A DNA stretch of 64,000 nucleotides from Halorussus amylolyticus (GTDB lineage Archaea > Halobacteriota > Halobacteria > Halobacteriales > Haladaptataceae), in contig NZ_ML974130.1 in the NCBI RefSeq assembly GCF_004143485.2, positions 446,621-510,620 of the forward strand. Reading direction: 5' to 3'. Both the position numbers and the translations under genes were made by a program. The notes below the pieces were generated by a model. That model made no database searches. It saw only the letters and a program-made list of their open reading frames with translations, and was not told where the DNA came from. This document shows, one piece after another, positions 24,574-55,414 of the stretch (positions within the stretch are counted from its first letter, which is position 1; every line of letters begins with the position of its first letter).

Positions 24574-26547
24574 ATGCAACGAGAGACCGGTGCGGTATTG
24601 ATGGCGATGCTCCTGATGCTCGCCGGCGTTCCGATGGCGACGCTCGGGGGTCCGTCGGACGCGACAGACACGAACGGAGTCACACTTCAAGACACGACCG
24701 TCGAGCGACTCGAACTCGCGAACGCCACGGTCGAGAACGCGACGATTGAGGAGATGAACGTCGAGTCGGTCGAAATCGAGAATCGCGACGAGACGCTCGA
24801 CGACGCGACGCTCCAGAACGTCACGCTCGGGGAACTGTCCTTCGAGAACGTGACGATGGAGAGCGTCGAGACCGACGACGAGTCGCTCTCCCAGCAACTC
24901 AGCGGGAACGCCTCGGTCCAGGAGGTCACGGTGCAGGACCTCACCATCGAGGAGATGAACGTCTCACAGCTCACGGTCGAGAGCCTGACCGTCCAGACCG
25001 ACGGTGAGGCGACCGCCGAGGAGACCACGGCTGAGGAGACCGAAACCACGACCGAGGAGGAGGAGGAGGACGCTGAGGAGGAAGACGCCGAGGAGGACGA
25101 GGAAACCACGACCGAGGAGGACGAGGAAGATGACCTCGGCGCTGACGACGAAGAGACGACCGAGGAGGAAGCCGACGGCGCTGACGACGAGGAGACCACG
25201 ACCGAGGAAGACGACCTCGCGCTCCAAGACGAGGAGACCACGACTGAGGAGGAAGACGCGGCTGACGACGAGGACGAGACCACGACCGAAGAAGACGAAG
25301 CGGACGACGAGGAAGAAACGACGACCGAAGAGGACGCGGAAACCACGGTCGCTGACGACAATCAGACCGCCGAGATGGACCAGGAAGTCGAGTCGGTCGA
25401 AGTCGAGAGCGCGACCATCCAGACCGTCGACGTACAGGAGATGATGGTCTCGAACATGGTGGTCGAGAGTCTCGACACCGGTGCTGACGACGAGGAGACG
25501 ACCACCGAGGAGACCGAAACGACGACTGAAGAGGAGGATGCTGAGGAAGAAGACGCCGAGGACGAGGAAGCCGAAGAGACCACGACAGAGGAGGAGGACG
25601 ACGACCTCGGCGCTGACGACGAAGAGACGACCGAGGAGGAAGCCGACGGCGCTGACGAAGAGGAAACCACGACCGAAGAAGACGACCTCGCCCTCCAAGA
25701 CGAGGAGACCACGACCGAAGAGGAGGAGGAAGATGCGGCTGACGAGGAAGACGCCGAGGACGAAGAGACGACCACCGAGGAAGACGCCGCTGACGAGGAG
25801 GACGAAGCTGACGACGAAGAGACGACCACCGCGACCGACGGCGGCCAAGACGGCACGGTCATCGAGAACGTCTCGGTCGGGACCGTAAGCGTCGAGAACG
25901 CGACCGTCGGGTCGGCCGCGGCCGAGGAGTCGAGCGTCGAGGAGGGCCAGGTCGCTATCCTCTCCATCCAGGACCTCTCGGCACCCTCGGAAGTCCAGCA
26001 GGGCGACAACTACACCGTCGAGGCGACCGTCTCGAACGAGGGCGGCGACCAGGTCGTCCAGCAGGTGTCCTACCGCATCGAGGGCAACGTCGTCGATTCC
26101 GACCTGACTCAGATTCCGGCCGGGAACTCGACCACGGTGACGTTCAACATCACCGAAAGCGATATCGGCGCGTTCCCCGCCGGGGAGTACACCCACGGCG
26201 TGTACACGCTGGGCGCGAACCAGACCGGTAATCTGACCATCACCGAAGCGAACGACACCGCGGACGGTGGCGCGGAGACGACCGAACCGGGTAACGAGAC
26301 CACGACCGAAGACGAAGACGGTGAGGACGAAGAAACCACGACTGAGGAAGACGCCGCTGACGACGAGGAAACCACGACCGAAGAGGAGGACGACGAAGCG
26401 GACGGTGAGGACGAAGAAACGACGACCGAGGAAGACGCGGCTGACGACGAGGAAGCCGCTGAGGACGAAGAAACGACGACCGAAGAGGACGAGGAAGAAG
26501 ACGAACTCGGCGCTGACGACGAAGAGACAACGACCGAAGAAGCCTGA
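24574..26547 (+). CDS. Secreted highly acidic protein with TTTEE repeats
   Basis: A 657-residue protein with a signal peptide (MQRETGAVLMAMLLMLAGVP). The layout is a solenoid-like region of repeating VxNxTIxEMNV units rich in N-glycosylation sequons (about 25-145), a long Asp/Glu/Thr linker, a second short solenoid-like segment, a second linker nearly copying the first, a third segment, a CARDB/Ig-like domain (about 465-565, EVQQGDNYTVEATVSNEGG), and a final acidic tail. I count about 17 TTTEE motifs, and LGADDEETT recurs three times. No C-terminal anchor is seen. Thr clusters suggest O-glycosylation. Probably an extracellular matrix-like protein; function unknown. Confidence 0.8.
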   Translation: MQRETGAVLMAMLLMLAGVPMATLGGPSDATDTNGVTLQDTTVERLELANATVENATIEEMNVESVEIENRDETLDDATLQNVTLGELSFENVTMESVETDDESLSQQLSGNASVQEVTVQDLTIEEMNVSQLTVESLTVQTDGEATAEETTAEETETTTEEEEEDAEEEDAEEDEETTTEEDEEDDLGADDEETTEEEADGADDEETTTEEDDLALQDEETTTEEEDAADDEDETTTEEDEADDEEETTTEEDAETTVADDNQTAEMDQEVESVEVESATIQTVDVQEMMVSNMVVESLDTGADDEETTTEETETTTEEEDAEEEDAEDEEAEETTTEEEDDDLGADDEETTEEEADGADEEETTTEEDDLALQDEETTTEEEEEDAADEEDAEDEETTTEEDAADEEDEADDEETTTATDGGQDGTVIENVSVGTVSVENATVGSAAAEESSVEEGQVAILSIQDLSAPSEVQQGDNYTVEATVSNEGGDQVVQQVSYRIEGNVVDSDLTQIPAGNSTTVTFNITESDIGAFPAGEYTHGVYTLGANQTGNLTITEANDTADGGAETTEPGNETTTEDEDGEDEETTTEEDAADDEETTTEEEDDEADGEDEETTTEEDAADDEEAAEDEETTTEEDEEEDELGADDEETTTEEA

Positions 26548-26575
26548 CGCAGCTTTCGGGTCGAACTGACGCAAC

Positions 26576-30366: not shown

Positions 30367-30900
30367 TCACGACGCTCTCGCGTAGACGTTCTCGGTCCGG
30401 GTCTCGCCGTCGAGATGGGTCTCGGCTTCGCCGGTCTTCTCGAAGCCTCGCTCCTCGTAGAACGCGTTGCCCATCTCGTTTTCGGCGAGTACCATCGCCT
30501 GCATCGTCTCCGCGCCCATCTCTCTCAGTCGTTCCTCCGTGGCTTCCAGCAGGGAGGTTCCGATGCCCTCGTGCCATCGCTCGGGGTGAACGTAGAGTCG
30601 GAGCACGTCGCCCTCGCCGTTGTCTGTGGCTCCGTGCGCGAACCCGAGAATTTCGCCCGCTCGCGGTTCGCTTCGCTCTCCGCTCGCGCTTTCCGAGTCG
30701 CGTTGCGACTCGCTCGCGACCAGACACACCTGCTCGTCGTCGCCGATGATTCGGTTCATCGCGTCGTCGGCGTACCACTCCGAAACCGCGTCCTCGATGA
30801 CCGATTCGGGCACGACGTCGGCGTAGGCGCGCTTCCACGACTCGCGGGCGACCGAGCGAATGGTCGAGATGTCGTCTTTCGTGGCGTCTCTGATTTCCAT
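30367..30900 (-). CDS. GNAT-family N-acetyltransferase with in-frame hairpin element
   Basis: A 177-residue GNAT protein starting MEIRDATKDDISTIRSVARE. The acetyl-CoA-binding segment is RLYVHPERWHEGIGTSLLEA and the C-terminal part has NAFYEERGFEKTGEAE. Substrate is unknown; the layout is like RimI-type or small-molecule acetylases. Between the second and third strands lies an inserted charged stretch (SESQRDSESASGERSEPRAG) encoded by a hairpin element that also occurs inside cofC. Confidence 0.85.
   Translation of the reverse strand: MEIRDATKDDISTIRSVARESWKRAYADVVPESVIEDAVSEWYADDAMNRIIGDDEQVCLVASESQRDSESASGERSEPRAGEILGFAHGATDNGEGDVLRLYVHPERWHEGIGTSLLEATEERLREMGAETMQAMVLAENEMGNAFYEERGFEKTGEAETHLDGETRTENVYARAS
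30659..30715 (-). repeat. Protein-coding hairpin element, copy in GNAT gene
   Basis: On the coding strand the 26-nt core begins GAGCGAGTCGCAACGCG and ends CTCGGAAA; its stem is CGAGTCGC / GCGACTCG with loop AAC. It matches the cofC copy (34551-34576) at 24 of 26 positions. The two differences are the two partners of one base pair (T-A here, G-C in cofC). GCGAGCGG and ACCGCGAGC blocks follow in both copies. Confidence 0.8.
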
Positions 30901-31028
30901 GCGAGTGAGTGCCACGAGGAAGGTGGTAGCCGTGACGGTCGGTTTCGTCGGGAATTCTGGTTGAAGGATGAGGGTTGGGGTGCACGGTCGGACGACGACC
31001 TTATGCGACGGCGCTTTGACGTGAGAAC

Positions 31029-31367
31029 ATGACCGAAGCCACATTGGTCCGGGCGCGAATCAAACCCGGAAAGACCGAACGTCTGCGCACGTGGTTCACA
31101 GAACTATCAGACCGTGAAGACGAAGTCCTCGAAACCCTCCATCACGAGGGGATGTACACCGAAACTGCGTTTATCGAGACCACCGACGACAGCGACTACT
31201 TCTACATGTTCATGGAAGCCGCCGATATGGAGGTGGCCGACGAGGCTGGCGACGAAGAAGCCTACGAGATAGACGAACAGCACCACGAGGTGCTGGCCGA
31301 GACGCTGACCGACGACGACCGGAAGTTCGAATCCATCGGCCACTTCACGAACCCGGACCGGACCTGA
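31029..31367 (+). CDS. DUF6176-type protein
   Basis: A 112-residue acidic protein starting MTEATLVRARIKPGKTERLR. It matches the haloarchaeal family I know as DUF6176, a ferredoxin-like dimeric alpha-beta barrel fold reminiscent of monooxygenase-like ABM domains (ETAFIETTDDSDYFYMFMEA). Function is unknown. A TATA-like CCTTATG (about 30999-31005) lies about 25 bp upstream. It is divergent from the GNAT gene. Confidence 0.8.
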   Translation: MTEATLVRARIKPGKTERLRTWFTELSDREDEVLETLHHEGMYTETAFIETTDDSDYFYMFMEAADMEVADEAGDEEAYEIDEQHHEVLAETLTDDDRKFESIGHFTNPDRT

Positions 31368-31433
31368 GAGCGAAGCTACCTCGAAGCAAGTGAACCGGGA
31401 AAGTCGCTCGCGTCCGGAAAAGAGGACGTTCGC

Positions 31434-33365
31434 TCAGTCGTCGCCCGAGGCCGCCGCGCCGCCACTGCTCACGCCCGTGCCCGGCCCCACGTCGATACCG
31501 AGTTCCTCCAATTTCTCGTCGGGCACCACGCCGTCTTCCCAGCCGCGGACCTCGTAATACTCGTCTTTGAGTTGGTCGAGTTCCACGAGCGAGCCTTCGG
31601 AGCCGCCCTGTCCCGGAATCGCCTTGGGTTCGCCTTCCACGAACCGGACCGGCAGGTCGTCGTCGCTCCCGTCGAAGCCGACGAGGTTGTTGTAGTAGCG
31701 TTCGAGGTTGTAGATGCGCTCGCCCGCCTCCATAATCTCCTCCTCGGAGAGGTCGAGGCCGGTCATGCCGTTGTACTGGAGGACGTACTCCTCGACGCCC
31801 TCCGCGAAGGCGTTGAACTTGCAGATGTCGAAGCTGTCGGAGACCGCGTGCATGTCCTGGAAGGTGGCGCAGAGTTCGCCTTTCCCCTCGGGTTCGTGGG
31901 GGTCGACCTTCTCCGGGATGCCGAGAATCTCGGCGGCCGGGGTGTACCCCCGGAGGTGGCACGCGCCGCGGTTCGAGGTGGCGTAGCCGATTGCCATCCC
32001 CTTCATGCCGCGCGGGTCGTAGGCCGCCATCGTCTGGCCCTTCACGTCGAGGGACATGTCCTCGTCGCCGAGTTCCTCGGCCGCGCGCTTCGCACCCTCC
32101 GCGAGGAGGTCGGCGAGGTCGTCCTCGCGGTTGGCGACGCGCTCTATCATCTCTATCATCGTCTCGGTGTCGCCCCAGTCGAGTCCTTCTTCGAGGTGGC
32201 CCTCCTCGGTGGCTTCCATCGCCATCGCCATCGTGTTGCCCATCTCGATGGTGTCGACCGCCATGTCGTTACACCGGTCTATCATCATCGCGACCTTGTC
32301 GCGGTCGTCGGTCATCGAGTTCGGGCCGAGCGCCCACGCCGACTCGTACTCGTAGGACTCCATCCGGATGTTGTGGTCCTCGCCCTTGTGGTTGACCTGC
32401 ACCTCGACCTCCTTCTTGCACGCCACGGGGCAGGAGTGGCAGGTGGGTTCGTCCACGAGGATGTTCTCGCGGACGTTCTCGCCCGACACCTTCTCGGCGT
32501 CGATGTTGGGTTCGTCGGCGTCGCCCTCGGCCTCGCTGCTGGTGGAGGTGTACTTTGCGTTCCGGGTCGGCAGGCCGTCCATCTCCTCGGTGACGTTCAT
32601 CAGGACGTTGGTGCCGTACAGCGACAGGCCGCCCTCGTTCGGCGCGGTCACGTCGGACTCCTGAATCACGCGCATCGCCTGCTTGTGGCCCTTCTGGAAC
32701 GTCTCGGAGTCGGCGGGCTTGGGCATCTTGGTCGAGGATTTGACCACGACCGCCTTGAGGTTCTTCGACCCCATCACCGCGCCCGTGCCACCTCGGCCGG
32801 AAGCCCGGTCGTCCTCGTTCATGATGCAGGCGTACCGGACCTGATTCTCGCCGCCCGGTCCGATGGCCATCGCCGAGAGGTTCTTGCCGAACGCGCCGTC
32901 CATCTTGTCTTCTATTTCGGCCATCGTATCGTGGACGCCCCATCCCCACATGTGCGAGGCGTCCCGGAGTTCGACTTCGCCGTCTTCGACGACCGCGTAG
33001 ACAGGGTCGTCTGCTTTCCCCTCGAACAGCAGGCCGTCGAACCCGGACCACTTGAGTCGCGCGCCCGACCACCCGCCGTGGTGCGAATCGGTCACGGTGT
33101 TCGTGAGCGGCGACTTCGTGACGACCGCGATTCGCCCGCTCATCACGGTCTGAGTCCCGGTGAGCGGCCCCGTCATGAACGCGAGGAGGTTGTCCGAGCC
33201 GAGCGGGTCCACGTCCGCCCCGTTGTCGAAGACGTACTTTACCCCCAGCCCTCGCGCGCCGATGTACTTCCGAGCGTCGTCGTCGTCGATACCCTCGTAG
33301 CCAACGGCCTCCTCGGAGAGGTCGACGCGAGCGACGTGGTCTTGGAATCCGCCTAAATCAGTCAT
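31434..33365 (-). CDS. Aldehyde ferredoxin oxidoreductase family protein (tungsten enzyme)
   Basis: A 643-residue AOR-family protein of full length. The 4Fe-4S ligands are CHSCPVAC near residue 315 plus a later Cys in DSFDICKF, which corresponds to the DxxGLC pterin/cluster motif. Pterin-binding segments include GRGGTGAVMGSKNLKAVVV near residue 195. Family members oxidise aldehydes to acids with ferredoxin using a tungsten-bispterin cofactor. Haloarchaea carry several paralogues and the aldehyde here cannot be told. MoaB, SAMP1 and MOSC genes in the window may supply the cofactor. It is divergent from the VanZ-like gene. Confidence 0.9.
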   Translation of the reverse strand: MTDLGGFQDHVARVDLSEEAVGYEGIDDDDARKYIGARGLGVKYVFDNGADVDPLGSDNLLAFMTGPLTGTQTVMSGRIAVVTKSPLTNTVTDSHHGGWSGARLKWSGFDGLLFEGKADDPVYAVVEDGEVELRDASHMWGWGVHDTMAEIEDKMDGAFGKNLSAMAIGPGGENQVRYACIMNEDDRASGRGGTGAVMGSKNLKAVVVKSSTKMPKPADSETFQKGHKQAMRVIQESDVTAPNEGGLSLYGTNVLMNVTEEMDGLPTRNAKYTSTSSEAEGDADEPNIDAEKVSGENVRENILVDEPTCHSCPVACKKEVEVQVNHKGEDHNIRMESYEYESAWALGPNSMTDDRDKVAMMIDRCNDMAVDTIEMGNTMAMAMEATEEGHLEEGLDWGDTETMIEMIERVANREDDLADLLAEGAKRAAEELGDEDMSLDVKGQTMAAYDPRGMKGMAIGYATSNRGACHLRGYTPAAEILGIPEKVDPHEPEGKGELCATFQDMHAVSDSFDICKFNAFAEGVEEYVLQYNGMTGLDLSEEEIMEAGERIYNLERYYNNLVGFDGSDDDLPVRFVEGEPKAIPGQGGSEGSLVELDQLKDEYYEVRGWEDGVVPDEKLEELGIDVGPGTGVSSGGAAASGDD

Positions 33366-33509
33366 GGTAACGTCCTATAATTGTATTAGGCCGGAAACGT
33401 GTTAGTCATTGCCGTAATGGCGTAACCGGAATAGGTTACGCCCGACCGAGGTCGAGTTTCCCGACCGACACCACCGTCTTTTATCGGTGCGCGTGCGAAC
33501 GCCGAGTCG

Positions 33510-33947
33510 ATGAACTTCGACCGTCTCCGCCCGCCGGGGTGGCTCCGCTGGGTCGGCGTCGTCGCCGTGGCTGGCGTCATCTTCTACAGTTCGGTAATCG
33601 AGCCGCCGAGTTCGGGCGTGCCTCACACCGGCCCGCTCGGACTGTTCGGCTTCGACAAGTGGCTCCACGTGCTGGCGTACGGGGGACTCGCAGGCGCGCT
33701 CGCGACCGCACTCGCCCCCGGTCGCGGGGTCGGCCGGGCGGTCGTGCTGGCGGCCGCGCTCGCGCTCGCGTACGGCGTCGGCATCGAGTTCGCACAGGCC
33801 GTGGTCCCCACGCGGGCGTTCTCGGTCGGCGACATCCTCGCGAACGTCGTCGGCGTGACGGTCGGGGCGGTGTGCTGGCGGACGGCGTTCGCGGTCACCC
33901 AGCGACTCGAAGCCGCCCAGACCGCTGAGACGAACGCGGGGCGGTGA
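33510..33947 (+). CDS. VanZ-like membrane protein
   Basis: A 145-residue protein with about four membrane helices. The VanZ features are FDKWLHVLAYGGLAGAL after helix 1 and EFAQAVVPTRAFSVGDILANVVGVTVG, with the conserved Phe-Asp-Lys-x-x-His and Asp-x-x-x-Asn. The family is named from a teicoplanin-resistance protein, but the archaeal role is unknown. It is upstream of cofC in the same direction (73-bp gap). Confidence 0.82.
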   Translation: MNFDRLRPPGWLRWVGVVAVAGVIFYSSVIEPPSSGVPHTGPLGLFGFDKWLHVLAYGGLAGALATALAPGRGVGRAVVLAAALALAYGVGIEFAQAVVPTRAFSVGDILANVVGVTVGAVCWRTAFAVTQRLEAAQTAETNAGR

Positions 33948-34020
33948 GCCTCCGGATGTACGCCCGTCTCGACGCCATTCCACAGCCTCTTAACGACCGC
34001 CGACCCAACGACGGGCACGA

Positions 34021-34689
34021 ATGAGAGTCGTCGTCCCCTTCGCCGCCAGTGAGCCGAAGACCCGACTCGAAGGCGTGCTCTCCGCCGCCGAGCGGTCTTC
34101 GTTCGCCGAAGCGATGCTCGCGGACGTGCTGGCGGCCGTGCGCGCGACCGGTCGCGACCCCGAAGTGCTCGCGACGGCTCCAGTCGCGGTGGACGCGCCG
34201 GTGACGGTGGACGACCGACCGCTCACGCCCGCAGTCAACGCCGTGCTGGCCGAGACCGAGGGACCCGTCGCAATCGTGATGGCCGACCTCGCGCTGGCGA
34301 CCCCCGACGCGCTGGCGCGACTGTTCGGAACCGACGCTGAGGTCGCACTCGTGCCGGGACGAGGCGGCGGCACGAACGCGCTCGTCGCGCGCCACCCCGA
34401 GTTTCGGGTGGACTACCACGGGACTTCGTATCTGGACCATCTGGAGATTGCGCGAGAGGTCGGGGCGGAGGTCGAGGTCGTTGACTCGCACCGACTCGCG
34501 ACTGATGTGGACGAGCGCAAGGACTTGGCGGAGGTGCTGATTCACGGAAAGAGCGAGGCGCAACGCGCCTCGGAAATGCGAGCGGTGAAACCGCGAGCGC
34601 GGAGCGAGTCGTTCAAGTGGCTGAAAGAGGCGGGGTTCGAACTGGCGAGCGACGAGAGTCGGGTCGGTGTGGTTCGGGACGGAATCTGA
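34021..34689 (+). CDS. cofC: 2-phospho-L-lactate guanylyltransferase CofC
   Basis: A 222-residue nucleotidyltransferase. It starts MRVVVPFAASEPKTRLEGVL, with the nucleotide-binding PKTRL, the metal-binding IVMADLAL and the VPGRGGGTNALV segment of the CofC family. It activates 2-phospholactate with GTP for coenzyme F420. The C-terminal part after DVDERKDLAEVLIHG is interrupted by about 20 foreign-looking residues (SEAQRASEMRAVKPRARSE) encoded by the hairpin element also found in the GNAT gene, before the family ending WLKEAGFEL. cofG follows after the ATPase/TOPRIM pair. Confidence 0.9.
   Translation: MRVVVPFAASEPKTRLEGVLSAAERSSFAEAMLADVLAAVRATGRDPEVLATAPVAVDAPVTVDDRPLTPAVNAVLAETEGPVAIVMADLALATPDALARLFGTDAEVALVPGRGGGTNALVARHPEFRVDYHGTSYLDHLEIAREVGAEVEVVDSHRLATDVDERKDLAEVLIHGKSEAQRASEMRAVKPRARSESFKWLKEAGFELASDESRVGVVRDGI
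34551..34598 (+). repeat. Protein-coding hairpin element, copy in cofC
   Basis: The 26-nt core (34551-34576) forms CGAGGCGC / GCGCCTCG around AAC, followed by GCGAGCGG and ACCGCGAGC. It keeps the cofC frame open and adds a charged segment to the protein. See the partner copy at 30659-30715. Confidence 0.8.
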
Positions 34690-54253: not shown

Positions 54254-55414
54254 TCACCGGACGTCCGGGGCGGCCGATTCCGCGGTCTCGGTCGCCGCGG
54301 ATTCGACCTTTCGAAGTCGGTCGGGCCGGGCGATGACGTAAAGGGTGTCGCCCGGCGCGAAAACGCGGTCCGGGGCGGGGAGCGTCTCGACGCCCGCGTC
54401 GGTTCGGACCGCGACCACGCTCACGTCGAGACCGCCGGCCGTCGCGCCGTCGAGCGCGCTCCCCCCGGCGATTTCGACCACGCCGACCGTCTCGTCGGCC
54501 GCCCGGAGTTGCGCCGAGAACTCCCGGTCGGCGCGGGGTTCGGTCGGGAGCGTTACCAGCCGATACTCCGCGTCGGGGTCGAGGTTGGTCGCGTCGTCCG
54601 CGCCGACCGCGAGGGTCGCCACGTCGCCGACCGCCGCGCGGAGTTCCGCGGTGGCGACCCGCTCGGGGTCGGGTTCACGAGTCCAGACTTGGACGAGGTC
54701 GCCCGCTCCCGCGCTGAACGCGGGGTCGGCCCGGACCGCGACTGCGACGGTGCCCGAGGGGAGCGTCGGACCGATACCGGCGACCCGACCGCCGAGCGCG
54801 AGGAACTCGACCGCGCCGTCGTCGCCGATGTCGGCATCCACGTGGCCGACGCCGTAGTCGTCGCGGAGTCGGGTCGCGAGCCTGTCGCGGAGTTCGGCGA
54901 CCGTGAGCCTACGCGGGAATCGGAGCGTCTTGCCTGCGAGCGACTCCTTCGTCTCGGGTGCGACCGGCTCGTACCCCTCCATATCGTCGATTTCGCCCGG
55001 AAGCTCGACCGTGGTGAACCGACCCACGGTTCGGACGAGTCTGCTCACGTCGCCGTCGAGTTCGGCCGCGCCCGTGAGCGCGACCGCGTCGGTCGCGAGT
55101 CGGTCGCCGACGCGAGCGCCCGCGACCCCCGCGACGGCACCGAAGACGAACGCCGCGACGTTCGTGACCGCGGTCGCGTGAGAGGGGAGCGCCTCGCCGC
55201 CCCCGAGGAACTGCTGGAGCGCGGTCGCGGTGTTGAGCCACAGACCGACCGTGCCGAGACCCACGAGGACAGCGAGGCCCTCGGGCATCCGCTCGCGGGC
55301 GTAGGACTTGTAGAGCAGGCCGAGGACGGTGGCGACCGCGCCCGAGAGGAGAGTCAGACCGACCGCGCGCCCGACCGGTGACACTAGCTCCGAGACCGCG
55401 GTGAGGGCGCTCAC
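54254..55414 (-). CDS. TrkA-C domain membrane protein, second of a pair
   Basis: A 386-residue protein with an N-terminal membrane part of about three helices (VGLTLLSGAVATVLGLLYKS, GLAVLVGLGTVGLWLNTATA, AVTNVAAFVFGAVAGVAGA) and two cytoplasmic beta-rich regions. The C-terminal one (DVSVVAVRTDAGVETLPAPDRVFAPGDTLYVIARP) is a TrkA-C/RCK-C domain. It begins with GTG overlapping the TGA of the upstream gene (GTGA), so it is translationally coupled. Ligand sensing for a potassium channel is the likely role. Confidence 0.8.
   Translation of the reverse strand: MSALTAVSELVSPVGRAVGLTLLSGAVATVLGLLYKSYARERMPEGLAVLVGLGTVGLWLNTATALQQFLGGGEALPSHATAVTNVAAFVFGAVAGVAGARVGDRLATDAVALTGAAELDGDVSRLVRTVGRFTTVELPGEIDDMEGYEPVAPETKESLAGKTLRFPRRLTVAELRDRLATRLRDDYGVGHVDADIGDDGAVEFLALGGRVAGIGPTLPSGTVAVAVRADPAFSAGAGDLVQVWTREPDPERVATAELRAAVGDVATLAVGADDATNLDPDAEYRLVTLPTEPRADREFSAQLRAADETVGVVEIAGGSALDGATAGGLDVSVVAVRTDAGVETLPAPDRVFAPGDTLYVIARPDRLRKVESAATETAESAAPDVR

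Follow-up and report, generated by a model that had tools for sequence, protein, structure and literature searches.

The closest described counterparts of the elements reported here are the Rickettsia palindromic elements (RPEs), which measure about 150 bp, fall into ten families and lie inside ORFs in nearly half of the cases (PMC10969869). An in-frame palindromic coding element of the archaeon Methanocaldococcus jannaschii is cited in PMC2996958; it and the Wolbachia palindromic coding elements are, likewise, in-frame "selfish" coding palindromes. REPs are short hairpins, some of them intragenic and in frame, and their CGTC type comes without a dedicated transposase (PMC3733652). For Haloquadratum, PATEs with near-terminal palindromes and no terminal inverted repeats were described, which are tied to IS605-type transposons, together with SMRs of about 110 bp (PMC3119063). 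A literature search limited to open-access papers brought up no haloarchaeal family of elements like ours and, due to this limit, an earlier description elsewhere cannot be excluded. The statement of the first-pass annotation that no such family was known in haloarchaea fits the open-access literature, but M. jannaschii provides an archaeal precedent, as cited in PMC2996958. RPEs and the haloarchaeal elements are both palindromic, dispersed and in frame in many unrelated genes (housekeeping genes for RPEs), and both encode a conserved peptide. In length they differ: exact insertion events in haloarchaea comprise 45-60 nt and only some long forms come to about 110 nt.

The analysed window comprises 64,000 nucleotides of the Halorussus amylolyticus genome (GCF_004143485.2, NZ_ML974130.1, 446,621-510,620, forward strand; contig 1 of the genome labelled G000). 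A 26-nt core is shared with 24 of 26 identities by a GNAT acetyltransferase gene (30715-30690, minus strand, GAGCGAGTCGCAACGCGACTCGGAAA) and by cofC (34551-34576, plus strand, GAGCGAGGCGCAACGCGCCTCGGAAA), just as the first-pass annotation had it, and the two differences (T/G and A/C) fall on the two bases that form stem pair 4 of hairpin 1. For a 26-mer with up to three mismatches the chance expectation across the window is 0.00. A covariance model of hairpin 1 scored the GNAT and cofC copies with 44.0 and 43.5 bits, the next match in the window with 17.5 bits. The whole element exceeds the core and covers 57 nt or 19 codons in the GNAT gene (30658..30714, minus strand, SESQRDSESASGERSEPRA) and 48 nt or 16 codons in cofC (34552..34599, plus strand, SEAQRASEMRAVKPRA). 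Hairpin 1 has an 8-bp stem and an AAC loop in both copies, with the arms CGAGTCGC/GCGACTCG in the first (30694..30712, minus) and CGAGGCGC/GCGCCTCG in the second (34554..34572, plus). The similar block noticed downstream of each core is a second hairpin, GCGAGCGG...CCGCGAGC, which reads GC-GA-GCGG...CCGC-GA-GC with a longer loop in the GNAT gene (30659..30687, minus) and GC-GA-GCGGT-GAA-ACCGC-GA-GC in cofC (34578..34598, plus). In the predicted folds hairpin 1 has 8 bp and tandem G-A mismatches flank hairpin 2, at z-scores of -1.0 to -4.0. The short form of the element can be written as [A/G]GC, hairpin 1, a GGA spacer and hairpin 2, in 45-60 nt; longer forms in relatives have three to four hairpins and reach about 110 nt. 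The palindromes are internal, the ends of the element being direct repeats (AGCGAG...GCGAGC). No Rfam family was matched by either window element at E<=1.

Both copies are in frame within genuine genes, encoding a PF00583 acetyltransferase (30367..30900, minus strand; 26 orthologues aligned) and a PF01983 CofC protein (34021..34689, plus strand; orthologues compared). In AlphaFold models both inserts lie in low-confidence segments with well-predicted elements on either side: in the GNAT protein in the loop of about residues 64-83, flanked by strands 57-63 and 84-93 (block mean pLDDT 57), and in CofC in a low-confidence stretch within about residues 178-195 (block mean pLDDT 48). The added peptide had been described as a charged stretch; it is hydrophilic, but not strongly charged overall (mean net charge -0.06). 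Elsewhere in the window, positions 25000-26550 hold a long array of degenerate acidic coding repeats of the DEETTTEE type. A guanidine-II riboswitch match at 32098-32130 (minus strand) stayed below threshold (21.5 bits versus a gathering score of 32); located within a long ORF, it is probably due to chance.

A search with sequence patterns and covariance models in the whole genome and in relatives revealed a dispersed family. In H. amylolyticus five strong copies fit GAGNCGCAACGCGNCTCGGAAA with <=2 mismatches, none being obtained with the reversed control, and each of them reads in frame on the sense strand, with a codon phase common to all five. The covariance model adds three weaker in-frame copies (L417, L418 and L415, the latter near a gene end), which gives eight in-frame copies in total, and it also picks up two hairpins next to fragments resembling tRNA, along with two other palindromes; no further copies were detected in the first 400-kb sample searched. 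Pattern matches were found in 31 of 40 genomes of relatives, with essentially none for control patterns, and model matches in 41 of 59 genomes across the order, with 1-38 in each. An exact 20-mer was located among 84,980 species in 82 stretches, 77 of them from haloarchaea and five from scattered bacteria. Hence, the family is nearly restricted to the class Halobacteria and spread across it, and its host genes form 137 clusters. The suggested likeness to RPEs holds for behaviour, that is for in-frame palindromes in unrelated genes with empty orthologous sites; homology to a described RPE family would be unlikely because of this near restriction to Halobacteria. The M. jannaschii element is archaeal as well, whereas the present family is spread over a whole class. 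Carriage by haloviruses was considered and rejected, as the three matches on viral contigs, 0 of which are in sense phase 0, resemble chance.

Several related structures were observed besides the typical copies. Hairpins like hairpin 1 stand beside repeats resembling tRNA 3' halves, e.g. CCGCATGCCCGGACCGTC...GGTTCAAATCC, at L084, L105 and L110 and, in H. amylolyticus itself, at L419 and L421; at the first three, hairpin 2 is present too and a complete tRNA gene adjoins. A distinct palindrome, GAGACGCGACGCGTCTCGCAAG or near to it, recurs in G002, G003 and G020; its copy L416 (contig 6 of H. amylolyticus, 55136-55169) scores as noncoding.

Is the repeated unit the hairpin or the peptide which it encodes? 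The peptide E-A-[QRH]-R-A-S-[ED], searched in any codons in 24 genomes, occurred 37 times, and 28 of these occurrences (76%) used exactly the hairpin codons against 4.1% expected from codon usage (p about 1e-31); perfect 7-bp palindromes were present in 31 of the 37. Chance and codon bias can therefore be dismissed as origin, on this control and on the window expectation of 0.00, and the possible objection that the motif is no commoner than codon bias predicts does not apply. Stem pair 4 of hairpin 1 had been left free in the search, and among 80 copies it was G-C in 70, T-A in three, C-G in three, A-T in one and broken in three, thus paired in 77. The variants correspond to the codon pairs Ala/Ala, Ser/Asp, Pro/Gly and Thr/Val, so that each alternative costs two amino-acid changes. 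Covariation in the stem of hairpin 1 was additionally checked against shuffles. Hairpin 2 played no part in the search. Complementarity of its free inner pair is seen in 87 of 98 copies, where 34 would be expected, and its reading frame is one in 69 copies and another in 26. For glutamine the hairpin uses CAA 14 times and CAG once, although CAA makes up 19% of Gln codons. These data establish a nucleic-acid hairpin, and not a favoured peptide, as the repeated unit. One might still suppose that selection favours SEAQRASE...ASGE as a useful surface linker in high salt, with codon choice producing the hairpin incidentally, since there is a single codon phase, the inserts sit in flexible loops and decayed copies retain a related peptide. 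The codon control, the amino-acid-changing compensations at stem pair 4, the two reading frames of hairpin 2 and the preference for CAA against codon usage all contradict this, and a function at the peptide level, already disfavoured, is hardly to be expected.

Each of the five genes examined by orthologue alignment (GNAT, cofC, a helicase gene, RibE and TrpA) showed empty sites among its orthologues, and in three of them these are exact. The possibility that all orthologues carry the same residues, which would have made them ancestral, is thereby rejected. At the GNAT site most relatives have only 3-5 residues, e.g. VCLVATDED-GEIVGF compared with VCLVASESQRDSESASGERSEPRAGEILGF in H. amylolyticus, and the empty form in cofC is exemplified by VLIHGDGAAYDWL. 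Exact inserts are seen in the helicase gene, where 48 nt separate GAG from AAC, and in RibE, where 60 nt separate GAT from TGG; neither involves a target duplication, and no sequence was lost at either site. In TrpA an indel of exactly 45 nt distinguishes the members of a close pair (L367/L403); the AGCGA repeat seen here is ambiguous and may be part of the element itself. As far as a comparison of present-day sequences can demonstrate it, the elements were inserted cleanly into pre-existing genes, and without clear target-site duplication in the exact events. A single TrpA site is occupied in 20 of 79 orthologues, and the tree implies about 15 gains or losses at this site, at least 10 of which are forced by well-supported branches; occupancy is weakly clustered, with 29 of 500 shuffles as low. 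Natrinema ejinorense is occupied at TrpA and a close relative is empty, the gene being 96.7% identical in DNA. Reconstructed in this way, sites have demonstrably been gained and lost repeatedly, and sister species differ. In the best solved-structure match of TrpA the insert is absent, and the alignments of nearly all other structures break at the same place.

Some observations at these sites stand apart. The GNAT orthologues L130 and L132 have a different, GERSDASRTSEDERSESSG-like insert in a neighbouring loop. The cofC matches of G002 and G023 are split over several frames, which suggests frameshifts or assembly errors. In G043 the RibE site holds the hairpin-1 module in tandem duplicate, GEALRASEN GEALRASKN (L455). 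Copies at the same site are not, as might have been assumed, much closer to each other than copies at different sites, the difference being slight (0.79 versus 0.74 identity, host flank included).

The complementary arms need not reflect selection: correction of quasi-palindromes by template switching could keep them complementary as well, and covariation alone is therefore no proof. This leads to a reading without any mobile element, in which template switching during replication (palindrome correction) and microhomology copying create and homogenise hairpins in loop-coding DNA. Besides the complementary arms, it could draw on the tandem module in RibE, on the GCGAG-type sequence at both element ends and on the lack of a Y1 transposase. 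It leaves unexplained why the same 48-60 nt, with two hairpins in fixed order, recur in unrelated genes of different genera, nor does it account for the exact clean insertions, and we consider it quite doubtful.

Strand and phase were called by a codon log-odds model, which replaced a classifier based on GC3-GC2 only because the latter seemed to miscall several copies as antisense. Under this model the sense strand in phase 0 accounts for 80 of 94 pattern copies in Halorussus and relatives and for 61 of 67 in the wider haloarchaea, which makes 141 of 161 among copies taken without regard to context. A few copies are in other frames (e.g. L219), and the insert lengths in exact events are multiples of three (45, 48 and 60 nt). 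Translationally bypassed hairpins (byps) are a further class of inserts, and these need not keep the frame. The haloarchaeal elements, with phase 0 in 141 of 161 copies and insert lengths of 45, 48 and 60, keep it. Intergenic copies are rare in Halorussus (a few percent), so that the substantial share outside genes known from RPEs is not met there, but intergenic relatives exist in other genera. In some genomes of other families (G027, G045, G058 and G068) this hairpin occurs in intergenic arrays instead, several of which have a GGGCA spacer. The arrays L291-L301 of these genomes consist of many different GC-rich hairpins, some with conserved blocks like CCTCACGCCTCCCCAGCCTCG, and are possibly a longer mosaic element.

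The strong sense orientation and the rarity outside genes could also point to an RNA element useful to the host, an mRNA hairpin acting in translation pausing, stability, ribonuclease protection or protein binding and kept in sense and in frame as part of the coding sequence. Its stable structure, its covarying stems and the occupation of the same site in several genera, e.g. in TrpA and GlyRS, are in line with such a role. However, the host genes are unrelated and the same genes are empty in close relatives, including the TrpA pair of 96.7% DNA identity, and the tree has 15 changes in TrpA occupancy, which is only weakly clustered. Moreover, same-site copies in GNAT (L118-L120), the helicase (L439) and RibE (L451) have lost the stem and kept a related peptide, which speaks against maintenance of the hairpin by the hosts; in TrpA, L363 resembles a left-arm remnant. 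A host-useful RNA element thus seems improbable to us.

Known classes of small mobile repeats match the elements only in part. They lack the GTAG/CGTC tag of REPs, position counts giving [AG]GC before and GGA after the stem, and in contrast to REP/RAYT systems they are mainly intragenic, RAYT (Y1_Tnp, PF01797) being absent from H. amylolyticus and from G003. From MITEs they differ by their direct ends, without terminal inverted repeats, and by the missing target-site duplication in the helicase gene and RibE, the AGCGA repeat of the TrpA pair L367/L403 remaining ambiguous. Haloquadratum PATEs and SMRs are small mobile haloarchaeal repeats as well, but the present elements are in frame inside genes and their host has no Y1 transposase. 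A search for Y1_Tnp gave 0 matches in H. amylolyticus, which rules out a Y1/RAYT transposase as mobiliser in the same genome, and 0 in G003, where the model matches number 38.

In our judgement the elements are probably selfish, RPE-like palindromic elements orphaned of a transposase, spread class-wide in haloarchaea and tolerated in surface loops, their movement being inferred from species comparison. They would propagate as selfish, or at least self-propagating, DNA via a single-stranded hairpin intermediate, on which an activity encoded elsewhere may act. Internal palindromes without target duplication are reminiscent of IS200/IS605-type transposition, yet no Y1 transposase was found, so that either a single-strand transposase acting in trans and no longer resident or template switching during replication would be needed. 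Presumably, survival is limited to insertions that lie on the sense strand, in phase 0 and in flexible surface loops, because among the six frames sense frame 0 alone gives an open, hydrophilic, non-basic peptide. Later on, an inserted copy decays or is deleted. Some points speak against this selfish-element explanation. The mobilising enzyme was not found, and filtering at the peptide level can explain the frame bias but not the rarity of intergenic copies in Halorussus, since an element inserting at random, with peptide tolerance as the sole filter, should be found in about equal numbers outside and inside genes. It remains conceivable, although we would not expect it, that the element targets transcribed and translated sequence in sense by a route with RNA or single-strand DNA as template and no dedicated transposase, coding sequence being its niche.

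For annotators and structural biologists our results are a warning that some haloarchaeal "family-specific insertions" are copies of this element. Some haloarchaea are transformable and grow freely. With its wide distribution and genetic tractability, the family provides a second system in which the movement of palindromic coding elements and the origin of new protein segments can be studied.
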